Shown one piece after another: positions 1,678 to 10,951 of a DNA stretch of 64,000 nucleotides (the first letter of the stretch is position 1; each line of letters opens with the position of its first letter). Source of the stretch: Rhodoferax koreense (GTDB lineage Bacteria; Pseudomonadota; Gammaproteobacteria; Burkholderiales; Burkholderiaceae_C); NCBI RefSeq assembly GCF_001955695.1, contig NZ_CP019236.1:1302001-1366000 (forward strand), read 5' to 3'. Below the pieces are notes generated by a model. That model did not search any database, was not told the origin of the DNA, and worked only from the letters and a program-made list of their open reading frames with translations. Made by a program: the position numbers and the translations under genes.

Positions 1678-2091
1678 TCAAGGGCGCGCCTCGAGCAGGT
1701 TGAAGATGCCCATGCCCGCCACCATGGCCAGCACGAACACCAGCGCCTTCGCCTCGGCCATGCCCAACGCCACCAGGGCAGGCGCAGGGCAGAAGCCGGC
1801 CAGGCCCCAGCCCGCACCGAACAGCAGGCTGCCCGTCACCAGCCGCCGGTCGATGCCGCGGGCCGTGGGCAGGTGCATCGGCGTGCCGAGCAGCGACCGT
1901 TGGCGTCGCGCCGCCAGCCGGAAGGCCGGGAAGGCCACGCCCACGGCTCCTGCCATGACCAGCGCCAGCGATGGATCCCATCGCCCGGCCAGATCGAGGA
2001 AGTCCAGCACCTTGGCCGGGTTGGCCATGCCGGAGACGATGAGCCCGAGGCCGAAAATCAAACCCGCCAACAAGGCGCTGAAAATGGACAT
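1678..2091 (-). CDS. YeeE/YedE family protein (DUF6691), second half-transporter
   Basis: A 137-residue membrane protein beginning MSIFSALLAG. The family transports sulfur compounds (thiosulfate uptake in TsuA/YeeE). The GLAGFCPAPAL segment carries the conserved Cys at about residue 101, matching one of the in-channel cysteines thought to hold thiosulfate. The neighbouring gene encodes the complementary half, so the two probably form one split transporter. ATG at 2091 sits 12 bases after the stop of the upstream half. Membership in a BigR-type operon points to import of thiosulfate, sulfide or persulfide; the exact substrate is inferred. Confidence 0.88.
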   Translation of the reverse strand: MSIFSALLAGLIFGLGLIVSGMANPAKVLDFLDLAGRWDPSLALVMAGAVGVAFPAFRLAARRQRSLLGTPMHLPTARGIDRRLVTGSLLFGAGWGLAGFCPAPALVALGMAEAKALVFVLAMVAGMGIFNLLEARP

Positions 2092-2102
2092 GCGATCTCC
2101 CC

Positions 2103-2540
2103 TCAGCTGCCGAGCAGATGCCGCAGCACAAAGACCGTGAGGAAGCCCGTGCCCATGAAACACAGCGTGGCCACCATCGAGCGTGGCGACAGGCGGGCGA
2201 TACCGCACACGCCATGGCCGCTGGTGCAGCCCGCGCCGTAGCGCGTGCCGATGCCCACCAGAAGACCTGCCGCGACCAGGCCCGCGAAGCCGGCGTCGAT
2301 CTGCAGGACCGGCATGGTCGCCACCAGGCCGTAGACCCAGGGCGCGGCCACCAGCCCGAGCAGGAAGGCCGCGCGCCAACCCGCATCGCCCATGGCGGGC
2401 CGCAGCAGGCCGCCGAGGATGCCGCTGATGCCGGCGATGCGCCCGTTGAACAGCGCGAACACGCCGGCCGCCACACCGATCAGCGCGCCACCGGCCAGGG
2501 CGGACCACGGGGTGAAATGCATCCAGTCGATGGCCATCAT
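2103..2540 (-). CDS. YeeE/YedE family protein, first half-transporter
   Basis: A 145-residue membrane protein with the YeeE signature GAGCTSGHGVCG (Cys near 105 and 112), the cysteine-bearing motif of thiosulfate-type transporters. It is the N-terminal partner of the following YeeE half. Its start (ATGATG at 2540-2535) overlaps the TGA of the arsR gene, so translation is probably coupled. The set of ArsR repressor, two YeeE halves and a divergent persulfide dioxygenase is the organisation known for BigR regulons in Xylella and Agrobacterium. Confidence 0.9.
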   Translation of the reverse strand: MMAIDWMHFTPWSALAGGALIGVAAGVFALFNGRIAGISGILGGLLRPAMGDAGWRAAFLLGLVAAPWVYGLVATMPVLQIDAGFAGLVAAGLLVGIGTRYGAGCTSGHGVCGIARLSPRSMVATLCFMGTGFLTVFVLRHLLGS

Positions 2541-2863
2541 CGGTCTCCTTCGGGGCAGTAGAGGCGGTACAGCACCGCCAGGATGTCCAGCGCCGCCGGA
2601 TCGGCCACGCGGTAGTAGATGTTCTTGCCGTCGCGGCGCGTGTCGACCAGGCCTTCGGCGCGCAATACGCCCAGCTGCTGGGACAGGCTGGGCTGGTGCA
2701 GGTCCAGCAGCTCCTCGAGCTCGCCGACGCTGCGCTCGCCCTGCGCCAGTTGGCACAGCAACAGCAGGCGCGATTCGTGGGCCAGGGCCTTGAGCGTGGA
2801 AACCGCCTGGCCCGCGGCTTCCCGCAGCCGGACAGGGTCGATCGGGGCGGCGCGTTTTCTCAT
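2537..2863 (-). CDS. bigR: ArsR-family repressor, BigR/SqrR-like persulfide sensor
   Basis: A 108-residue winged-helix regulator. The helix-turn-helix is around QPSLSQQLGVLRAEGLV, followed by a wing RRDGKNIYYRV. It has exactly two cysteines, one in LLLLCQL (about 37) and one in YCPEGDR (about 103). These match the pair that forms a di- or tetrasulfide bridge in BigR and SqrR and releases the DNA when sulfide or persulfide is present. It is divergent from the persulfide dioxygenase gene across an AT-rich palindrome that is its likely operator. The symbol rests on the cysteine pair and context. Confidence 0.85.
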   Translation of the reverse strand: MRKRAAPIDPVRLREAAGQAVSTLKALAHESRLLLLCQLAQGERSVGELEELLDLHQPSLSQQLGVLRAEGLVDTRRDGKNIYYRVADPAALDILAVLYRLYCPEGDR

Positions 2864-2890
2864 TTTTTTCTCAGGGTACCGAAGGGTGTG

Positions 2891-2927
2891 TTGATTTAAT
2901 TATACAAATTAATATAATGTAAATCAA
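2891..2927. promoter_or_regulatory. Palindromic operator, probable BigR box
   Basis: An AT-rich island between divergent genes in GC-rich DNA. The outer arms TTGATTTA (2891-2898) and TAAATCAA (2920-2927) are perfect inverted repeats. The inner arms ATTATA (2899-2904) and TATAAT (2913-2918) are also perfect, with one extra G at 2919. The inner TATAAT could serve as a -10 element for the rightward gene. BigR binds AT-rich palindromes of this sort, so one repressor dimer pair could shut both directions. Confidence 0.8.
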
Positions 2928-2947
2928 CAGATTGAAAGGCACCCACC

Positions 2948-3841
2948 ATGTCCGCCCGAATGCACATCGAGGCCTTTTTCGACGGGCCCACGGGCACCGT
3001 CAGTTATGTCGTATCGGACGCAGTGGCCCGGCGTGCGGCCATCATCGACCCGGTGCTCGACTACGACGCCAAGTCCGGGTGCACCGGCACGGCCTCCATC
3101 GATCGCCTGCTTGCCTACATCGCAGCGCAATCGCTGGTGGTGGACTGGATTCTGGAAACCCACGCCCATGCCGATCACCTGTCGGCCGCGCCCTACCTGA
3201 AGGCCAAGGTGGGTGGACGGCTGGCCATCGGGCGCCACATCCTCGGCGTGCAGGCCACCTTCAAGAAGCTGTTCAACCTCGAGTCGTCGTTCGTGCCCGA
3301 CGGCCGGCAGTTCGACCATCTGTTCGAGGAAGGCGAGCATTTCCGGATCGGCGGGCTCGACGCCCAGGCCATCGCCGTGCCGGGGCACACGTCGGCCGAC
3401 GTGGCCTATGGCGTCGGTGACGCGGTGTTCGTGGGCGACACCTTGTTCATGCCCGACGTGGGCACGGCGCGTGCTGACTTTCCCGGTGGCGACGCGGCCA
3501 TGCTGTACCGGTCGATCCACCGGCTGCTGGCGCTGCCCGAAGCCACGCGCCTCTTCGTCTGCCACGACTATCCGCCGGCAGGGCGCGCGCCGGCCTGGCA
3601 GACCACGGTGGCGGCCCAGCGGGCCGGCAACATCCACGTGCACGAGGGCGTGTCGGAAGCCGCGTTCGTGGCCATGCGCAATGCCCGCGACGCCGGACTC
3701 GAATTGCCGACGCTGATCATCCCCGCGATCCAGGTGAACGTGCGGGCGGGACAACTCCCCCCGGCCGAGGACGACGGTGTGCGCTACCTGAAGATTCCGA
3801 TCAACGTGCTCGGCGGCGCCGCGGCGAAACCACCCGGCTGA
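2948..3841 (+). CDS. blh: Persulfide dioxygenase-like metallo-beta-lactamase fold hydrolase (Blh/ETHE1 type)
   Basis: A 297-residue MBL-fold enzyme. The metal motif THAHADH (H72, H74, D76, H77) is followed by PGHTSADVAY (H147), GDTLF (D164) and CHDYPP (H206), as in ETHE1/Blh persulfide dioxygenases, which oxidise glutathione persulfide to sulfite in the cytoplasm. No rhodanese domain is fused. It starts 21 bases right of the putative BigR box and runs opposite to the repressor gene, so derepression by persulfide is likely. The product would be sulfite, which could leave by other transporters. Confidence 0.88.
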   Translation: MSARMHIEAFFDGPTGTVSYVVSDAVARRAAIIDPVLDYDAKSGCTGTASIDRLLAYIAAQSLVVDWILETHAHADHLSAAPYLKAKVGGRLAIGRHILGVQATFKKLFNLESSFVPDGRQFDHLFEEGEHFRIGGLDAQAIAVPGHTSADVAYGVGDAVFVGDTLFMPDVGTARADFPGGDAAMLYRSIHRLLALPEATRLFVCHDYPPAGRAPAWQTTVAAQRAGNIHVHEGVSEAAFVAMRNARDAGLELPTLIIPAIQVNVRAGQLPPAEDDGVRYLKIPINVLGGAAAKPPG

Positions 3842-3859
3842 TCGTCGCGCCGTGGTCGT

Positions 3860-4606
3860 TCAGGCGCCGGCGCCGACCAGCACGGGTTGCGCCCGGAAAC
3901 GGTCCGCGAACACGCGCTGCAGGTTTTCCACCTTGGGCTTGTCGTTGATCACGATGTACGGGTGCGAGGGGTGCCGCACGAGGAAGTCCTGGTGGTAGGC
4001 CTCGGCCGCGTAGAACTTCGCGCCGGGCTCCACCGTGGTGGCGATCTTCGCGCCGAACACGCGGGCCTTGTCGAGCTGCGCGATGTAGTTCTTCGCCACA
4101 CGCATCTGCTCGGCATTGGCCGGGAAGATGGTCGAGCGGTACTGCGTGCCGCTGTCCGGGCCCTGGCGGTTCAGCTGGGTCGGGTCGTGCGCCACGGAAA
4201 AGTAGATCTGCAGCAGCTGGCCGTAGCTGATCTCCGCCGGGTCGTAGCTGATCTGCACGGCTTCTGCATGGCCGGTGCGGCCGCTGCCGACCTGCTCGTA
4301 GCTCGCCGTGGCCGCCGCGCCGCCCGCGTAACCGGAGACCGCATTGCGCACGCCTTTGACATGCTGGAACACGGCTTGCACGCCCCAGAAGCAGCCACCG
4401 GCGAACACCGCCGTGGTGGTGGTGGCGCCACCGGCGGCCAAGTCTTCGGCCGGCGTCGGGATGACGACTGCGGACTCGCCGGCGAAGGCGGGCAGCACGC
4501 GCCAGGCGACGATACCTGCGGCCACGGCGTAGAAGCCGCCGAGCCAGCCGCGGCGCGACACGGCGGCGGCGTTCACGGTACGGGTGGTTTGAGTGGTGCT
4601 TTTCAT
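3860..4606 (-). CDS. msrA: Exported peptide-methionine (S)-S-oxide reductase MsrA with Tat-like signal
   Basis: A 248-residue MsrA that reduces methionine-S-sulfoxide in proteins. The catalytic GCFWG is present with Cys at 72. The N-terminus has a twin-arginine pair in SRRGWLGG and a hydrophobic run ending near AFAGES, so it probably acts in the periplasm. No other cysteine exists in the chain, so there is no resolving Cys; reduction must come directly from an external thiol donor. The gene overlaps the upstream DipZ-like gene by 4 bases, making that protein's thioredoxin domain the obvious donor. Last gene of the island operon. Confidence 0.93.
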   Translation of the reverse strand: MKSTTQTTRTVNAAAVSRRGWLGGFYAVAAGIVAWRVLPAFAGESAVVIPTPAEDLAAGGATTTTAVFAGGCFWGVQAVFQHVKGVRNAVSGYAGGAAATASYEQVGSGRTGHAEAVQISYDPAEISYGQLLQIYFSVAHDPTQLNRQGPDSGTQYRSTIFPANAEQMRVAKNYIAQLDKARVFGAKIATTVEPGAKFYAAEAYHQDFLVRHPSHPYIVINDKPKVENLQRVFADRFRAQPVLVGAGA

Positions 4607-5886
4607 GAGGTCGTGTTCTCCTTGTGGGCTTCCTCCAGCAATTGCCGGATCACCTGTTCCGATTTCTCGTATTCGCCCTCACCGAAGTGGTGAAAACGGA
4701 TGTTGCCCTTGGCGTCGATGAAGTAGTGGGCCGGCCAGTACTGGTTGTTGAACGCGCGCCAGACCGCAAAGTTGTTGTCCACCGCCACCGGGAACTGCAC
4801 GCCGAGGTCGCGGACGGCGCGTTTCACGTTGGCGAGGTTCTTCTCGAACGCAAACTCCGGTGCATGCACGCCGATCACCACCAGGCCCTGGTCCTTGTAC
4901 TTGCGGTGCCATTCGCGCACGTAGGGTAACGCGTTGCGGCAATTGATGCAGCCGAAGGTCCAGAAGTCGACCAGCACGACCTTGCCGTGCAGCTGCTCGG
5001 CCGTCAGGGGCGGGGAGTTGAGCCACTCGACCACGCCGTCCAGCGGCTGCATCCGGCCTTCGACCGGCAGCACCAGGCGCGACGCGGCGGGCGGCTGCGG
5101 CATCGCGACCGTCATGAAGCCGGCGCGCTCGGGTGCCGCGGGGACGGCGGGTTTGAAGCGATCGAACAAGGCCTTTTCCAGCCGGATCGCGCCACCGCTG
5201 GACATCTCGGCCAGGGCGCCGGTATCCAATCCCAGCGCAATCGCGCCGACGCCGGCCAGCACCGCGGCGCCGATGCCCTTGCGCACCCATTCTCCGTGGC
5301 CAGAGAAGCGTTTCACGCGCGCCAGCAGGCGGCCGCCGCCGATCAGCGCCAGCGCCAGCGAACTCAGCGCGCCGGCCGCGTAGGCGAGCAGCAGCAGCGA
5401 GGTGTGCAGGCTCGGACCCTGGATGGCCGCGGCGGTCAGGATCAGGCCGAGGATCGGGCCGGCGCAGGGTGTCCACAGCAACCCCGTGGCCAGGCCGAGC
5501 ACGAAAGAGCCTGCGGCCGGGCCGCGGGGCGAGGATGCGCCGTTCGATGCACCATCCGACCCGTTTGCCAGGCGTGAACCGAGCGCCACGAAGGGACCCG
5601 CGAGTGTTTGCGCCAGCCGCGGCAGCAGCAGGCTCAGGCCCGCCACGGCCAGCAGCGCCATGGCGATGAAGCGGCCGTATTCATTGGCTTCGACCGCCCA
5701 ATGCCCGGCCACCGCGCCGAGGGTGGCCACGCCGGTGAAGGCCAGCGCCATGCCGGCCAGCAGCGGCAAGCCGCTCTGCGTGAAAGGCTGGTCGGCCCTG
5801 GCGAAGACGAACGGCAGCACCGGCAGGATGCAGGGCGCCAGGATGGTCAGCGCCCCGCCCAGGTACGACAAGATGAAGGCCATCAT
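4603..5886 (-). CDS. DipZ-like fusion of CcdA/DsbD membrane domain and thioredoxin-like domain
   Basis: A 427-residue protein. Residues 1-220 are a CcdA-type membrane domain with the redox cysteines in LAPCILP (C19) and TPCAGP (C141). Residues 270-427 are a thioredoxin/redoxin domain with FGCINC (C313, C316). Such proteins carry electrons from cytoplasmic thioredoxin across the membrane to periplasmic thiol partners. Here the partner is probably the single-Cys MsrA encoded immediately downstream. The CINC motif is a variant also seen in DipZ. ATG at 5886 and ATG at 5883 are both possible starts. Confidence 0.9.
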   Translation of the reverse strand: MMAFILSYLGGALTILAPCILPVLPFVFARADQPFTQSGLPLLAGMALAFTGVATLGAVAGHWAVEANEYGRFIAMALLAVAGLSLLLPRLAQTLAGPFVALGSRLANGSDGASNGASSPRGPAAGSFVLGLATGLLWTPCAGPILGLILTAAAIQGPSLHTSLLLLAYAAGALSSLALALIGGGRLLARVKRFSGHGEWVRKGIGAAVLAGVGAIALGLDTGALAEMSSGGAIRLEKALFDRFKPAVPAAPERAGFMTVAMPQPPAASRLVLPVEGRMQPLDGVVEWLNSPPLTAEQLHGKVVLVDFWTFGCINCRNALPYVREWHRKYKDQGLVVIGVHAPEFAFEKNLANVKRAVRDLGVQFPVAVDNNFAVWRAFNNQYWPAHYFIDAKGNIRFHHFGEGEYEKSEQVIRQLLEEAHKENTTS

Positions 5887-5914
5887 GGTGATCGGGTCCT
5901 CTGGCTTGAAGGGT

Positions 5915-6214
5915 TTACTTCTTCATCTCGTCCTTCTTCATCATGTCGTCCTTCTTCATGGCGTCCTTGGCCATGCTGTCCTTCTTCATCGCATCCTTCT
6001 TCATCCCGTCCTTGGCCATGCCGTCCTTGGCCATGCCGTCTTTCGCCATGGCGTCCTTGCCCATGGCATCCTTGGCCATCGCGTCCTTGCCCATGGCGTC
6101 CTTGGCCATCGCGTCCTTGCCCATGGCGTCCTTCTTCATTTCTTCAGCGGCGAAGGCCGAGACCGAGCCGATGGCGAGCATGGCGGCGAGCAGGGTGGTG
6201 GAGAGCTTGTTCAT
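5915..6214 (-). CDS. Methionine-rich MxKDx pentapeptide-repeat protein, exported (MrpX-like)
   Basis: A 99-residue protein. A signal peptide ends at SAFA (residue 22); the mature 77 residues are almost entirely tandem pentapeptides of the form M-x-K-D-x, with 16 Met. Known repeat families match (pentapeptide MXKDX proteins). Start at 6214 was chosen because it begins the signal peptide and has AAGGA just upstream; a longer ORF start at 6265 is unlikely. It lies between an MsrP-like gene and DipZ/MsrA genes. In Azospira suillum the comparable MrpX acts as a sacrificial methionine sink for hypochlorite next to YedY1/YedZ1. Function here is inferred from that. Confidence 0.88.
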   Translation of the reverse strand: MNKLSTTLLAAMLAIGSVSAFAAEEMKKDAMGKDAMAKDAMGKDAMAKDAMGKDAMAKDGMAKDGMAKDGMKKDAMKKDSMAKDAMKKDDMMKKDEMKK

Positions 6215-6301
6215 AGAGGTTCCTTTGGAGTGGTTCAAAAAATCGGCGCGGTCCGGCATGGACACGGCCTTGCGTTTCGGCAGGGTTGAATCGGCTTCGA
6301 T

Positions 6302-7093
6302 TCAACTCCCGCCAAACCAGTTGTAGCCCTGGTCTTCCCAGTAGCCGCCGGTGTAGGTGTTGGTGACGAAGATCGCCTGGATGTGCTTCGGGTTCTTGTA
6401 GCCGAGCTTGGTCGGCATGCGCAGCTTCATTGGAAAGCCGTATTTGGGCGGCAGCGGCTGGCCGTCGTAGGTCAGCGCCAGCAGGGTCTGCGCATGCAGT
6501 GCCGTGGCCATGTCGATGCTGGTGTAGTAGTCGTCGGCACACTTGAAGCCGACGTATTTCGCCGTGGTGTCGGCCCCCACGCGGTGCAGGAAATCGGCGA
6601 AGCGCACGCCGCCCCATTTCCCGATGGCGCTCCAGCCTTCCACGCAGATGTGGCGTGTGATCTGGTCCTGCTGCGGCATGGCGCGCAACTCGGGCAGGGC
6701 CCAGCGCCGCTTGTCGGCGACCATGCCGGTGACTTCCAGCCGGTAGCCGGCTTCATCCACGACATGCACCTCGTCCTCGCCGTAGTAGGCGTTGAACGGG
6801 AACGGCCGCGTGATCTCGGCATCGGTATAGGTCGGCGCCATGCGATTCGGATCGAACAGCCAGCCCTGCGCGGCGTCGTTGAAGCGCGAGATGCGCGTGA
6901 GCGCGGCTTCCACGCCGGCGTTGTCGCTGATGCTGCAGCCGGTGAGCAGCGACAGGCCGCCGAGCGTGAGGGAGCGCTGCAGGAAGGCGCGGCGCGCGGG
7001 TTGTTCGATGCGGCGCACGATCAGCTTCTTTGCTTCGTGCAGCGCGGCGCCGGAGTCGATGCCGCTCAGGATGCGGGGCACTTGGATCTTCAT
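6302..7093 (-). CDS. MsrP/YedY-like periplasmic molybdopterin oxidoreductase
   Basis: A 263-residue enzyme of the sulfite oxidase fold family. HICVEGWSAIGKWGG contains the molybdenum-ligand Cys (C150). The N-terminus holds a Tat-like motif ARRAFLQRS (R34-R35) and a hydrophobic stretch ending LLTGCS, which could alternatively be a lipobox. MsrP enzymes reduce protein methionine sulfoxide in the periplasm using electrons from a membrane haem b protein. Its start overlaps the stop of the cytochrome b561-like gene (ATGA), giving that protein as electron donor. Closest precedent is YedY1 of Azospira suillum rather than E. coli MsrP, which has a different size. Confidence 0.88.
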   Translation of the reverse strand: MKIQVPRILSGIDSGAALHEAKKLIVRRIEQPARRAFLQRSLTLGGLSLLTGCSISDNAGVEAALTRISRFNDAAQGWLFDPNRMAPTYTDAEITRPFPFNAYYGEDEVHVVDEAGYRLEVTGMVADKRRWALPELRAMPQQDQITRHICVEGWSAIGKWGGVRFADFLHRVGADTTAKYVGFKCADDYYTSIDMATALHAQTLLALTYDGQPLPPKYGFPMKLRMPTKLGYKNPKHIQAIFVTNTYTGGYWEDQGYNWFGGS

Positions 7094-7737
7094 ACGGACT
7101 TCACTTTCTGGGCGCTGAGCATGCTCAGCAGGGTGCGTGGCACCAGGGCCACCATCACGAGGTGCACGGCGACGAAGGCCACCAGCAGCGCCATGGCGAC
7201 GAAGTGGATGCGGCGTGCGAATTCGTAGCCGCCGAGCAGCTCGCGCAGCAGGCCGAACTGCACCGACTTCCACAGCACCAGCCCCGACAGCACCAGCAGC
7301 ACGATGTCGAGCATCACGAACAGGTAGGCGAAGCGCTGCACCTGGTTGTAGTGGCGCGGATCGGCATGCGAGAGCTTGCCGCGCAGCGCGGCGAGGGCGT
7401 CGTGCCAGAGGCCGGCGGGCGACACCGGAAGGAACTTGGCGAACAAGCGGCCGCTGAAGAGGTTGCTGCACAGGTAGACCAGGCCATTGGCAGCTAGCAG
7501 CCACATCGCCGCGAAGTGCCACTGCAGCGCGCCGCCGAGCCAGCCGCCGAGCGTGAGGGTGGCGGGGATGTTGAACGGGAAGAACGGCGCGGCGTTGTAG
7601 ATGCGCCAGCCGCTGGCCACCAGCACCAGCACGGCCAGCGCGTTGAGCCAATGGGTGAGCCGTACCCATAGCGGCTGAATCGGCTTGCCATCCGCTAGCG
7701 GGCGGTGGCCATGGGTGGGTGTGGTGGTGGTGTCCAT
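7090..7737 (-). CDS. Cytochrome b561-family membrane protein (YedZ1-like electron donor)
   Basis: About 215 residues with four predicted membrane helices and histidines suited to haem b ligation (for example RLTHWLNAL, WHFAAMW, RRIHFVAM and FVAVHLV). It is translationally coupled to the MsrP-like gene and probably passes quinol electrons to it. The start is uncertain: ATG at 7737 (MDTTTTPT) or ATG at 7773 (MKRRAHG); neither has a strong ribosome site. It is the first gene of the leftward operon and is divergent from the response regulator at 7835, with about 100 bases of shared promoter region. Confidence 0.85.
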   Translation of the reverse strand: MDTTTTPTHGHRPLADGKPIQPLWVRLTHWLNALAVLVLVASGWRIYNAAPFFPFNIPATLTLGGWLGGALQWHFAAMWLLAANGLVYLCSNLFSGRLFAKFLPVSPAGLWHDALAALRGKLSHADPRHYNQVQRFAYLFVMLDIVLLVLSGLVLWKSVQFGLLRELLGGYEFARRIHFVAMALLVAFVAVHLVMVALVPRTLLSMLSAQKVKSV

Positions 7738-7834
7738 GGCTGCATTGTTGAAGCCGTGCGCTCGCCGTTTCATCACGGAAAGTTCAATTAATCGTGATAA
7801 CTCTCCAGGGAGGAACGGCCGATAATTCCACCGG

Positions 7835-8554
7835 ATGGACAACCCCAAACGCGTACTCATCGTCGAAGACGACGCCCACATCGCCGAGCTGCTGCGCCTG
7901 CACCTGCAGGACGAGGGTTATGCCGTGGTGCATGCGGCCGACGGCCATGCGGGCGTGCGCGAGCTCGAGCGTGGCGCCTGGGACGCGCTGGTGCTGGACC
8001 TGATGCTGCCCGGCGTGGACGGTCTGGAGATCTGCCGCCGCGCCCGCGCCATGACGCGCTACACGCCGATCATCATCATCAGCGCGCGTTCGAGCGAGGT
8101 GCACCGCATCCTCGGCCTCGAGCTCGGCGCCGACGACTACCTGGCCAAGCCGTTCTCGGTGCTGGAACTGGTGGCGCGCGTGCGTGCCTTGCTGCGGCGC
8201 ACCGAGGCCATGGCACGCAACGCCCGCATGGAATCGGGCCGGCTCGATTTCGGCAAACTCAGCATCGATCCGCTGCCGCGCGAAGTGAGCATGGACGGCA
8301 AACCGATCGAGCTCACGCCGCGCGAATTCGACCTGCTGTATTTCTTCGCGCGCCACCCGGGCCGGGTGTTCTCGCGGCTGGACCTGCTGAACCAGGTCTG
8401 GGGTTACCAGCACGACGGCTACGAGCACACGGTCAACACCCACATCAACCGCCTGCGCATGAAGATCGAGGACGACCCGGCTGCGCCGAGCCGCATCCTC
8501 ACCGTCTGGGGGCGGGGCTACAAGCTCGCCGTGCCCGAAGAAGGTGCGGCATGA
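7835..8554 (+). CDS. OmpR-family response regulator
   Basis: A 239-residue regulator. The receiver domain has the acidic pair ED near residue 11, phospho-acceptor D55 in VLDLMLPG and the conserved Lys in LAKPFS. The C-terminal winged-helix includes LTPREFDLLYFFARHPGRVFSR and WGRGYKL. The gene overlaps the kinase gene by 4 bases. It is divergent from the cytochrome/MsrP/MxKDx operon, like HprR next to msrPQ in E. coli, which suggests that it controls that operon in response to periplasmic oxidation. Confidence 0.93.
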   Translation: MDNPKRVLIVEDDAHIAELLRLHLQDEGYAVVHAADGHAGVRELERGAWDALVLDLMLPGVDGLEICRRARAMTRYTPIIIISARSSEVHRILGLELGADDYLAKPFSVLELVARVRALLRRTEAMARNARMESGRLDFGKLSIDPLPREVSMDGKPIELTPREFDLLYFFARHPGRVFSRLDLLNQVWGYQHDGYEHTVNTHINRLRMKIEDDPAAPSRILTVWGRGYKLAVPEEGAA

Positions 8555-10011
8555 GAAAGCTGTCGCTCTCGACGCGCCTGTCGCTGGTGTTCGCGGCGCT
8601 GCTGCTGGCTTGCTGCGGCGTGTCGGCATGGCTGCAGCTGCGCGCCAGCGAACGCCACGAACAGGAGGTGACGCAGCGCCTGTCGCTCGGGCTGGCGGCG
8701 CATATCGCCAGCAGCTCGACGCTGATGGCGCAAGGCAGGCTCAACGAGCCCGCGGTGAAGGATCTGTTCGACAAACTCATGGCCGTGAACCCGAGCGTCG
8801 AGGTCTATCTGCTGTCCGCCGATGGCCGCATCCGGGCCCAGGCCGCGCCCGAGGGGCATGTGAAGCGCGAACGCGTGGACCTCGGCCCGGTGCGGCGCCT
8901 GCTGGCCGGCGCGCCGCTGCCGATCCTCGGCGACGACCCGCGGGGCGACGGTACACGCAAGGTGTTCAGCGCCGCGCCGATCACCGAGGCGGGCCGTGAG
9001 GTCGGCTTCGTCTACGTGGTGCTGTTCGGCGAGGACCGCACCGCGCTGGCGGCCCGTCTGGCGGCCGATGGCGTGCTGCGCACCACGCTGTGGTCGATGC
9101 TGCTGGTGGCGCTGCTCGGCCTGCTTGCGGGGCTGGCCGCGTTTTATCTCATCACCCGGCCGTTGCGCGAGCTCACGGTGGCGGTGCGCCGTTTCGAAGC
9201 CGACGGCGTGGCCGCACTGGACAGCGCGGCCCCGCTGCTCGCGCATGCCAGCCGCGGCGGCGGCGAGATTGCCCTGCTGGGCCAAGCCTTCGCCCGCATG
9301 ACCGAGCGCATCGCCGCGCAGTGGCGTGAACTCACCGCGCAGGACCAGCAGCGGCGCGAGCTGTTCGCCAACATCTCGCACGACCTGCGCACGCCGCTCA
9401 CCTCGCTGCACGGCTACCTGGAAACGCTGCTGCTCAAGGCCGATACCCTGGAGGCAGCCGAGCGCCGGCGCTACCTGGAGATCGCGCTCGGCCAGAGCCG
9501 CAAGGTCGGCCGGCTGGCGCAGGAGTTGTTCGAGCTGGCGCGGCTCGAATACGGCGTGGTCAAGCCCGAGAAGGAAAGTTTTGCCGTGCCCGACCTGGTG
9601 CAGGACGTGTTCCAGAAGTTCGAGCTCGCTGCCGAGACGCGGCACCAGCGCCTGGTGGCCGACATGGCGCCGGGCCTGCCGGCCGTCACGGCCGACCTCG
9701 GCATGATCGAACGGGTGTTGACCAACCTGCTCGACAACGCCATCCGCCACACGCCCGAAGGTGGCGAGATCGTGGTGCAGCTGCGGCCCGAGCAACAGGC
9801 GGTGCGCATCGAGATCAGTGACACCGGCCCGGGCATCTCCGGCGAGCAGCGCCAGGCCTTGTTCACCCGGCCGGTGTTCTCGAGCCGGCCCGATGCGCGC
9901 AGCGGCGGCCTGGGTCTGATGATCGTGCACCGCATCCTGCAGCTGCACGGCAGCGACATCCAGCTGTTGCCGCGCGAAAAAGGCGCGGTGTTTTCCTTCG
10001 TGCTGAGCTGA
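8551..10011 (+). CDS. Sensor histidine kinase
   Basis: A 486-residue membrane kinase. One helix lies near residues 10-30, a periplasmic sensor of about 130 residues follows, then a second helix near 170-195 and a HAMP region. The dimerisation domain holds phospho-acceptor H277 in NISHDLRTPL. The ATPase domain has LLDNAIRHT, DTGPGIS and GGLGLMI. The partner is the adjacent OmpR-type regulator. The ligand is unknown; the flanking methionine sulfoxide repair genes suggest reactive chlorine or related oxidants. Confidence 0.93.
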   Translation: MRKLSLSTRLSLVFAALLLACCGVSAWLQLRASERHEQEVTQRLSLGLAAHIASSSTLMAQGRLNEPAVKDLFDKLMAVNPSVEVYLLSADGRIRAQAAPEGHVKRERVDLGPVRRLLAGAPLPILGDDPRGDGTRKVFSAAPITEAGREVGFVYVVLFGEDRTALAARLAADGVLRTTLWSMLLVALLGLLAGLAAFYLITRPLRELTVAVRRFEADGVAALDSAAPLLAHASRGGGEIALLGQAFARMTERIAAQWRELTAQDQQRRELFANISHDLRTPLTSLHGYLETLLLKADTLEAAERRRYLEIALGQSRKVGRLAQELFELARLEYGVVKPEKESFAVPDLVQDVFQKFELAAETRHQRLVADMAPGLPAVTADLGMIERVLTNLLDNAIRHTPEGGEIVVQLRPEQQAVRIEISDTGPGISGEQRQALFTRPVFSSRPDARSGGLGLMIVHRILQLHGSDIQLLPREKGAVFSFVLS

Positions 10012-10012
10012 T

Positions 10013-10951
10013 CTATCCGGCTGCGTTGCCGGCCACGCGCCACAGGGCCTCGGCCATCGCCGTCTGGGCCGCCTTGGCGCGAAACAGATGGATTTCCACC
10101 GGCAGTTGCCAGCCGGCATCGTCCTCGGGCGTGGCCATGACCAGGCGGCCGTCGGCGAGTTCGGCGCTGACCAGGCTCAGCGGCAGCCAGCCCAGGCCGC
10201 GGCCGCCCAGGGCGAGGTTCTTCAGCAGCCCGGTGTGGTGCGACGTGACCACGGGCTTGAAGCGCGCCGGGTCGAACACCTGGGCCATGCGCACCCGCAT
10301 GATCTGCCCGAGCCAGGATTCATCGCTGTAGGCCAGCATCGGCAGCGGGGTGTGATCGCCATGAATGGCATGCTGGGCCTTGCCTTCGGCGTCGGGCGCG
10401 GACACGGGAACCAGCCGATCCGCACCGATGCAGGTGAATTCGAAATCGGGCGCGAGCAGCCGCGTTGCGACCGACGCATGGCCGTAACACAGAAAAAACT
10501 GCACCCGGCGCTGCAGCATGAGTTCTTCGCAGACCTTGAAGCTGTCGGACACCATGTGGATCGGCCCGAGCTGCGTGGTTAGTTGCTGCTCGATCTGCTG
10601 CAGCCAGCCCGGAAAGAACGCCAGCGACAGCACATGCGTGGCGGCAAAGCGCAGGCTGCGACCGGCTTGCTCGTGCGCTTCGTGGGCCCGGGCGTGCGCC
10701 TGCGAAAGCCGCAGCACCACATCGCGCGCCACGTCCATGATGATTTCGCCTGCCGGTGTGGCCGAGGCCGGGTGCTGGGAACGGTCGATGAGTTCGACGC
10801 CGGCCCATTCCTCGAGCGAGCGGATGTGGCGGCTGAAAGCCGGCTGGGCGATGTTGCGCGCCTGCGCCGCGCGCGAGAAGTTGCCGGTCTCGGTCAGGGC
10901 CAGAAAGTCCTCCAGCCATTCGAGGTCCAGCGGTCGGTTAACGGGGCCCAT
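10013..10951 (-). CDS. LysR-family transcriptional regulator
   Basis: A 312-residue regulator. The helix-turn-helix is LALTETGNFSRAAQARNIAQPAFSR in the first 45 residues (seen in pieces), followed by a substrate-binding domain. Start at 10951 (MGPVNRPLDLEW) was chosen because it places the HTH at the usual distance; an upstream extension lacks family similarity. It is divergent from the DapA-like/Bug/SDR operon and presumably controls it. It ends one base from the stop of the sensor kinase gene on the other strand. Confidence 0.92.
   Translation of the reverse strand: MGPVNRPLDLEWLEDFLALTETGNFSRAAQARNIAQPAFSRHIRSLEEWAGVELIDRSQHPASATPAGEIIMDVARDVVLRLSQAHARAHEAHEQAGRSLRFAATHVLSLAFFPGWLQQIEQQLTTQLGPIHMVSDSFKVCEELMLQRRVQFFLCYGHASVATRLLAPDFEFTCIGADRLVPVSAPDAEGKAQHAIHGDHTPLPMLAYSDESWLGQIMRVRMAQVFDPARFKPVVTSHHTGLLKNLALGGRGLGWLPLSLVSAELADGRLVMATPEDDAGWQLPVEIHLFRAKAAQTAMAEALWRVAGNAAG

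Follow-up and report, generated by a model that had tools for sequence, protein, structure and literature searches.

A predicted OrhK/OrhR-type periplasmic methionine-oxidation system in Rhodoferax koreense with a putative operator common to two reductase branches

The stretch of DNA analyzed here (64,000 nucleotides; NZ_CP019236.1, 1302001-1366000; hereinafter the window, to which all positions refer unless another locus is named) comes from the 5.9-Mb genome of Rhodoferax koreense and contains an island of seven genes which is probably a self-contained periplasmic methionine-oxidation stress system of the OrhK/OrhR type. A two-component system (TCS) consisting of a response regulator (RR) and a histidine kinase (HK; 7835-10011, plus strand) is divergent from five minus-strand genes (7737-3860) that encode a cytochrome b561-type subunit, an MsrP-like molybdenum (Mo) enzyme, a secreted MxKDx repeat protein, a DipZ-like CcdA-redoxin fusion and MsrA. 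An earlier note, made from this sequence alone, had named these seven genes, and the domain matches and coordinates bear this out.

Judging from the gene order, the core of the locus is not new, the first five genes being of the type already described for uropathogenic Escherichia coli (UPEC). The elements that appear undescribed are the merger of two branches of methionine sulfoxide (MetO) reduction, the operator that, in Burkholderiales as well as in Pseudomonas, is common to both branches, and the tightness of the resulting regulon. Among the matches listed in a search of open-access titles and abstracts, there was no DipZ/MsrA or MsrB/MsrA operon under an OrhR-type regulator and no merged regulon.

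The operator and its association with the regulator

The putative operator, TCACG-N15-CGTGA (7773-7797), which was absent from the earlier note, is located between the two divergent gene rows, has the form of the published OrhR site and is conserved in relatives. In UPEC strain CFT073, the RR C3565/OrhR controls c3566-c3568 directly, and the promoter fragment bound by it contains TCACA-N15-TGTGA, an inverted repeat just 5' of the -35 box that has been proposed as the OrhR site (PMC8550376; this and the other publications cited here are drawn upon in part). Exactly this sequence is present in the chromosomal locus of E. coli strain Rb-3 (L200), which is assigned to the OrhKR type by gene order and site and is used, instead of that of CFT073, in the comparisons below.

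The site was analyzed in a collection of 84 loci comprising 79 from a scan of species genomes with the MsrP-like protein (the best 80 of 584 stretches), four annotated loci and the window. The operator was scored in the 81 loci with a b561 hit (L039, L044 and L083 lack that end). An exact TCAC-N17-GTGA is found in 40 of the 41 RR-adjacent promoters, the remaining one (L054) having a single mismatch, in none of the seven loci with SigF/NrsF, and in 20 of the 33 loci with neither regulator; the 41 include L071, with an RR fragment at the contig end, which is not among the 40 TCS loci in the gene-content count. Dinucleotide shuffles of the promoters gave a mean of 0.07 of 41 and a maximum of 2 in 300 rounds, and a reversed-pattern control in the 399 genomes of the window's family yielded 3 sites compared to 28, which together rule out a chance origin of the operator. 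In the 20 promoters that are left after de-duplication, the 25 columns of the site average 1.60 bits, as against 0.68 and 0.96 bits in the flanks; eight of these columns are invariant as a result of the selection, and the 17 inside them have a mean of approximately 1.4 bits. In the same promoter alignment, A-A-T-type -10-like positions flank the operator on both sides. The corresponding candidates in the window are GATAAT (7821-7826, plus strand; position partly conserved) for the RR promoter and AACAAT (7744-7749, minus strand; position conserved) for the b561 promoter, each a possible -10 element. The latter lies only some 6 bp from the ATG at 7737, suggesting that the mRNA may be leaderless.

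The presence of the site closely follows the presence of the regulator. For loci that lack a TCS next to them, 38 genomes were searched for the RR, the plasmid records L026 and L028 being left aside. All 20 genomes with site-bearing loci hold an RR at 72-76% identity elsewhere (that of G700 with an internal stop), and among the 18 siteless loci, the genomes of 16 yield no match to the RR at E<=1e-60, that of L103 has a 55% match and that of L087 has the RR. Among the 399 genomes of the window's family, an RR of at least 73% identity is present in 22, all of which contain the site at no more than two mismatches, and the site is found in 3 of the 377 others; in this count, the RR was taken as absent if none of the few candidates scored in a genome matched at E<=1e-100. 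The 28 sites in the family adjoin b561-msrP in 17 cases, MsrB in five and the RR in three (with MsrA beside one and no module gene in view beside two), and the remaining three adjoin none of these genes. The full 25-bp pattern, which was drawn from the operator sites at the msrP promoters of the locus collection, has one match in the host genome when as many as three mismatches are allowed, namely that of the island.

In several genomes, the two branches are encoded apart from each other, and each operon has its own site. In Pseudomonas, the RR-HK genes are unlinked from b561-msrP-MxKDx, and a scan of 12 genomes with the pattern at up to three mismatches detected sites at both that operon and the RR in 11; G155 has the RR-side site only, G157 contains an extra three-mismatch hit, and in G161 one place matches both strands. 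The genes divergent from the Pseudomonas RR are MsrB-MsrA in all six regions opened (of 12), with a DipZ-type gene between them in three. Likewise, G231, G301 and G043 from the window's family carry one site per operon, and in G574 (L197), from another family of the class, an RR of 77% identity and MsrB-DipZ are encoded divergently on either side of a two-mismatch site. Thus, the Mo and thiol branches share the operator when apart, and the window would carry the merged form of a regulon that is kept elsewhere as two operons. The shared operator supports the idea of two cooperating branches, and the combination of two branches and a sensor is supported at the level of the regulon.

Several observations weigh against this reading. 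The 40 site-bearing promoters are reduced to 20 by de-duplication, so the counts are not independent; because many loci are close relatives, they overstate independence. Because the pattern was built from the sites at msrP promoters, hits there with zero mismatches involve some circularity, and the RR-side sites of Pseudomonas, which are independent of the pattern building, carry 1-3 mismatches, with 4 hits of the reversed control in the same 12 genomes. There is no site at the msrP operon of L087, whose genome has the RR, nor is there one in G170 and G252 (RR at 64-66%). A class-wide scan of 274 genomes produced 14 sites other than that of the window, all with two mismatches, and the reversed control also produced 14; since 13 of the sites have no module gene in the adjoining sequence of at most 3 kb, G574 being the exception, two-mismatch hits alone amount to noise, and the regulon is extended by G574 only. 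Ten of the 39 TCS loci other than the window contain no gene for MsrA, MsrB or DipZ; three of these end within 600 bp, and seven have 7-8 kb in view, which implies that the thiol branch is optional. In the plasmid record L026, the b561-MsrP-like pair adjoins metal-resistance genes, with neither a TCS nor a repeat hit; the record annotates a DUF1109 protein, so L026 may be NrsF-controlled. The MsrP-like protein fails the MsrP model, as detailed below, so that MetO can only be called a putative substrate. Finally, in the part of the source used here, the UPEC resistance data are on reactive oxygen rather than reactive chlorine species; they include the kinase, the RR and the b-type and Mo subunits but do not extend to the Met-rich peptide (PMC8550376).

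Conservation of the gene neighborhood

The intergenic distances in the island are operon-like (b561/msrP -4, msrP/MxKDx +87, MxKDx/dipZ +28, dipZ/msrA -4 and RR/HK -4 bp). A scan that overall yielded no more sites than shuffled sequences detected no minus-strand terminator-like sites within 3700-10100. Among the 84 loci, 40 include a TCS, 7 include SigF/NrsF and 37 neither. In addition to the ten TCS loci without thiol-branch genes mentioned above, 13 encode MsrA, 11 encode MsrB and MsrA, and three encode DipZ only; the rest are L033, in which DipZ is cut by the contig end, L036, with CcdA alone and MsrA, and the window, with DipZ and MsrA. In L036 (Variovorax sp. EL159, 9240-10120), the CcdA-only protein that replaces DipZ and lacks the redoxin domain is encoded directly before MsrA.

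The exact seven-gene set is found in one of the 84 loci, the window itself; two further loci, L126 (G069) and L127 (G388), both add MsrB after MsrA, and in both the RR and the site adjoin the operon by coordinates. The earlier note knew of no described locus with all seven genes; the exact set is rare among the loci examined, and the five-gene core has been published (PMC8550376). Its central proposal, that Mo/b-type and thiol-fed MsrA branches operate with a Met-rich protein under an adjacent TCS, is strengthened by the conserved linkage and by the single operator type before both branches, and a lack of linkage in related genomes, which it had named as grounds for abandoning the idea, is not what we observe across the loci examined.

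Two loci of the collection deserve separate mention. L103, from a metagenome-assembled genome (Pseudomonadota bin10), encodes b561-msrP-MxKDx-DipZ with no adjacent TCS, SigF or operator, and given that the best RR of this genome is only 55% identical, a further type of regulator may exist. In L055 (3634-11600; a contig of Bordetella genomosp. 2), b561-msrP-MsrA is present twice in tandem, which may be an assembly artefact.

Predicted functions of the island proteins

The MxKDx protein (5915-6214, minus strand) contains a repeat array and matches TIGR02953 with 88.8 bits (cut-off 41). With the signal peptide and the cleavage site assigned by eye, the mature protein consists of 77 residues, including 16 Met, the same count as in the earlier note, and contains 14 M-x-K-D units; the family occupies a single place in the host genome (two matches, overlapping there). 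This protein is predicted to be a sacrificial Met sink. With an MxKDx-type repeat defined by at least four M-x-K-D/E units, 80 of the 84 loci, the window among them, have such a repeat beginning no more than 600 bp downstream of the MsrP-like gene, under either regulator type; the exceptions are L028, in which it is upstream, L105, which is cut off, and L026 and L087, which have none. In particular, the seven SigF/NrsF loci contain the same b561-MsrP-like pair, with the MxKDx gene directly downstream in all but L028 and L105, that is, in five. This linkage and the Met content, together with the description of MrpX as a scavenger (PMC5748585) and the proposal of the same role for BcrX (PMC8315932), argue against a scheme of envelope repair without a sink, in which the substrates of both branches would be ordinary periplasmic proteins and the role of the MxKDx protein would be structural, chaperone-like or one in substrate delivery. 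This scheme is compatible with L026 and L087, where no repeat open reading frame is found with 7-8 kb downstream in view, and with the UPEC data, in which the protection shown is attributed to c3566 and c3567, the b-type and Mo subunits (PMC8550376). On balance, we consider it unlikely.

Met-rich periplasmic proteins often bind copper, and if the MxKDx protein bound Cu(I), the island would be a metal-stress locus with redox repair attached. The E. coli relatives carry MCKDxMCK motifs, L026 adjoins metal transporters, and the kinase of the window matches a heavy-metal sensor model with 151.1 bits. However, this score is far below the cut-off of 292.55, the mature MxKDx protein of the window contains neither Cys nor His, and 25 of the 28 family sites adjoin Msr-type genes or the RR (the annotation of neighbors covered these genes), which makes copper handling a very improbable function of the island.

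The b561-type membrane subunit (7090-7737, minus strand, start ATG at 7737; PF01292, 89.1 bits) is 55-57% identical to the b-type subunits of E. coli OrhKR-type loci and would serve as the electron donor from quinol. It does not match the MsrQ equivalog model; hydrogenase/formate dehydrogenase b-type models were matched below their cut-offs. The MsrP-like molybdopterin oxidoreductase (6302-7093, minus strand; PF00174, 112.5 bits) has an N-terminus with a twin-Arg and a lipobox-like motif, as judged by eye, and the solved structure closest to it in sequence is that of E. coli YedY (1xdq, E 2.9e-10), to which it also aligns in the Cys column. Its score of 74.7 bits against the equivalog cut-off of 207 rules out a canonical MsrP. 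A true MsrP-MsrQ pair is encoded elsewhere in the host genome (L001; MsrP 484.2 bits against 207, MsrQ 168.5 bits against 130), as is a second MsrA, which looks cytoplasmic (L007), indicating that the island is an additional, distinct system. The low MsrP score, a weak resemblance to SorA (51.6 of 600 bits) and the canonical MsrPQ pair elsewhere are also what would be expected if the b561/Mo pair were another small-sulfoxide, N-oxide or sulfite-type enzyme that is merely co-regulated with the rest. We hold this to be quite unlikely in view of the close linkage with MxKDx, the operator in common with MsrB/MsrA operons, and the requirement for the UPEC homologue in peroxide resistance (PMC8550376).

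The second branch would be fed by the DipZ-like protein (4603-5886, minus strand), which matches AhpC-TSA (51.1 bits) and, under the cut-off of 27.1, DsbD_TM (20.8 bits). The closest match of its redoxin part is Mycobacterium tuberculosis DipZ (2hyx, E 1.2e-49), followed at a distance by the N-terminal domain of Neisseria PilB (2fy6, E 1.3e-4), and the membrane part matches a CcdA structure (5vkv, E 5.6e-4). Cys19 and Cys141 of the membrane part, a CcdA-type pair, and Cys313 and Cys316 of the redoxin CxxC motif are invariant in the five sequences aligned. MsrA (3860-4606, minus strand; PF01625, 196.9 bits; export judged by eye) contains a single catalytic Cys (GCFWG) and no resolving Cys. The catalytic column is conserved in all 50 aligned sequences and no other column exceeds 10% Cys; L059 has one further Cys within the domain, and the extra Cys residues of other relatives are found only near the N-terminus. 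The single conserved Cys suggests that the redoxin likely reduces the sulfenic-acid intermediate of MsrA directly. An electron relay from CcdA through thioredoxin (Trx) to MsrAB has been proposed in Haemophilus influenzae (PMC9404787). By eye, the N-terminus of the window MsrA contains a twin-Arg and those of several relatives do not, so that its designation in the earlier note as Tat-type is plausible for the window and not general. The claim that this MsrA makes the reduction stereo-complete has to be dropped, as the operon encodes no MsrB and MsrP itself has been described as reducing MetO diastereoisomers (PMC8945050).

The RR (7835-8554, plus strand), an OmpR-family protein of the OrhR type, is 62% identical to the RR of the E. 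coli chromosomal locus L200 and 69% identical to that of an E. coli plasmid locus. The segment GYEHTVNTHINRLR, which we take to be the DNA-recognition helix, is identical in all four RRs compared. Assignment to HprR is ruled out (155.9 bits against a cut-off of 353).

The structural model of the kinase (8551-10011, plus strand) is of moderate confidence (mean predicted local distance difference test score, pLDDT, 75.8; predicted template modeling score, pTM, 0.46) and presents the periplasmic domain as a helix-flanked beta sheet, which in our own reading is a predicted PAS/CACHE-like domain. Among the 45 aligned kinases, chosen at no less than 45% identity, none has a Cys in the periplasmic domain, all have Met77, 41 have Met59, and all have Cys at one or both of positions 21 and 22, which lie in the first membrane helix; the E. 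coli chromosomal kinase retains Met77 and Cys21 and has Leu at 59. HprS reportedly senses hypochlorous acid (HOCl) through two Met residues in the periplasm and also depends on a Cys in the membrane (PMC10151825). Because the same kinds of residues are conserved here, we propose the same sensing logic for the kinase of the window, with Met77, present in all the aligned kinases and in the E. coli chromosomal one, as the candidate sensor residue.

Taken together, these predictions suggest the following scheme. The kinase would sense a periplasmic oxidant, possibly via the oxidation of Met77/Met59, and the RR, by analogy with its published E. coli relative, would bind at 7773-7797 and activate the five-gene operon and probably also its own gene. 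The methionines of the MxKDx protein would soak up the oxidant, as suggested by the work on MrpX and BcrX, and the MetO formed on this and other envelope proteins would be reduced by two branches, with the enzymatic steps predicted from the respective families. In one branch, electrons would pass from quinol through b561 to the MsrP-like Mo enzyme; in the other, they would be transferred from a cytoplasmic thiol across the membrane by DipZ to the one-Cys MsrA.

Relationship to described systems

The OrhK/OrhR-c3566-c3568 locus of UPEC shows the same five-gene order, with HK-RR followed by the b-type subunit, an MsrP-like protein and a Met-rich peptide, so that the combination of a TCS, an MsrPQ-like pair and such a peptide, which the earlier note took for an unseen merger, has a precedent (PMC8550376). 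Unlike the window, the UPEC locus as described there has no DipZ or MsrA after the Met-rich gene, and the operon continues into the hemolysin operon (PMC8550376). This nearest tested relative was reported to respond to H2O2 and tert-butyl hydroperoxide, that is, to reactive oxygen species (PMC8550376), so that hypochlorite, the signal assumed in the earlier note, is not supported by this comparison.

The MrpX/YedY1/YedZ1 system of Azospira suillum, which is under SigF/NrsF control, likewise pairs a YedYZ-like reductase with a periplasmic scavenger rich in Met, a likeness at the level of description (PMC5748585). The window has the traits of the MrpX type, namely a signal peptide (by eye), MxKDx repeats, a very high Met content and an adjacent YedYZ-like pair, and differs in the adjacent RR/HK in place of SigF/NrsF and in the addition of DipZ-MsrA. 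The HOCl-induced bcrXQP genes of Brucella, under BcrS/AbcS, also resemble the core of the island in encoding an MxKDx peptide and an MsrPQ-like pair, but they are controlled by an extracytoplasmic function sigma factor, and no thiol branch is mentioned in the part of the source used (PMC8315932). The E. coli HprSR-msrPQ system shares with the window the TCS control of a periplasmic MetO reductase and the kinds of Met and Cys residues in the kinase (PMC10151825). It differs in the subfamily of the reductase. To our knowledge, it includes no Met-rich protein. The thiol branch resembles the Haemophilus CcdA-Trx-MsrAB and Neisseria DsbD-PilB relays, in which electrons from cytoplasmic thiols reach MsrA/MsrB through a periplasmic thioredoxin-like domain (PMC9404787, PMC6210582); in the window, CcdA and the redoxin are fused as in DipZ, and MsrA is a separate one-Cys protein with no MsrB. 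According to a review, yedY, the copy being unspecified, is induced by NaClO in Pseudomonas fluorescens biofilms (PMC7464077).

The present analysis joins MrpX scavenging, OrhKR of uropathogenic E. coli and CcdA-fed MsrAB into one regulon with a sequence-defined operator, and the 25-bp pattern predicts genes under periplasmic methionine-oxidation control in bacteria with an OrhR-type regulator. It also raises the question of why a cell would bear the cost of two routes, one respiratory and one based on thiols, to a single repair. A bolder generalization, which we regard as conceivable although short of probable, is that OrhK/OrhR is misnamed and acts as the master switch of a periplasmic methionine-oxidation regulon that is widespread among beta- and gammaproteobacteria. 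Its native targets would be the Met sink and two redundant electron routes, from quinol to the Mo enzyme and from cytoplasmic thiol via DipZ to MsrA/MsrB; the kinase would respond to whether its own Met77 is oxidized and could therefore be turned off by the reductases it induces, and in E. coli the link to hemolysin would be a late capture.

The OrhKR-type locus on the E. coli plasmid NZ_CP066807.1 (L025, 5486-9477) is distinct from the chromosomal one. Matches to this plasmid locus were found in 73 of 5,426 E. coli genomes; the best place is at least 99% identical in 73 of 74 records, and all 76 places are on plasmids. In the window itself, the island is adjoined by a persulfide/sulfite-type locus (1678-3841), in which the gene for a Blh-like metallo-beta-lactamase persulfide dioxygenase (396.6 bits, cut-off 625) is convergent to msrA. 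This locus also encodes a BigR-like ArsR regulator (110.9 bits against a model cut-off of 155) and membrane proteins that are presumably YeeE/YedE-like.

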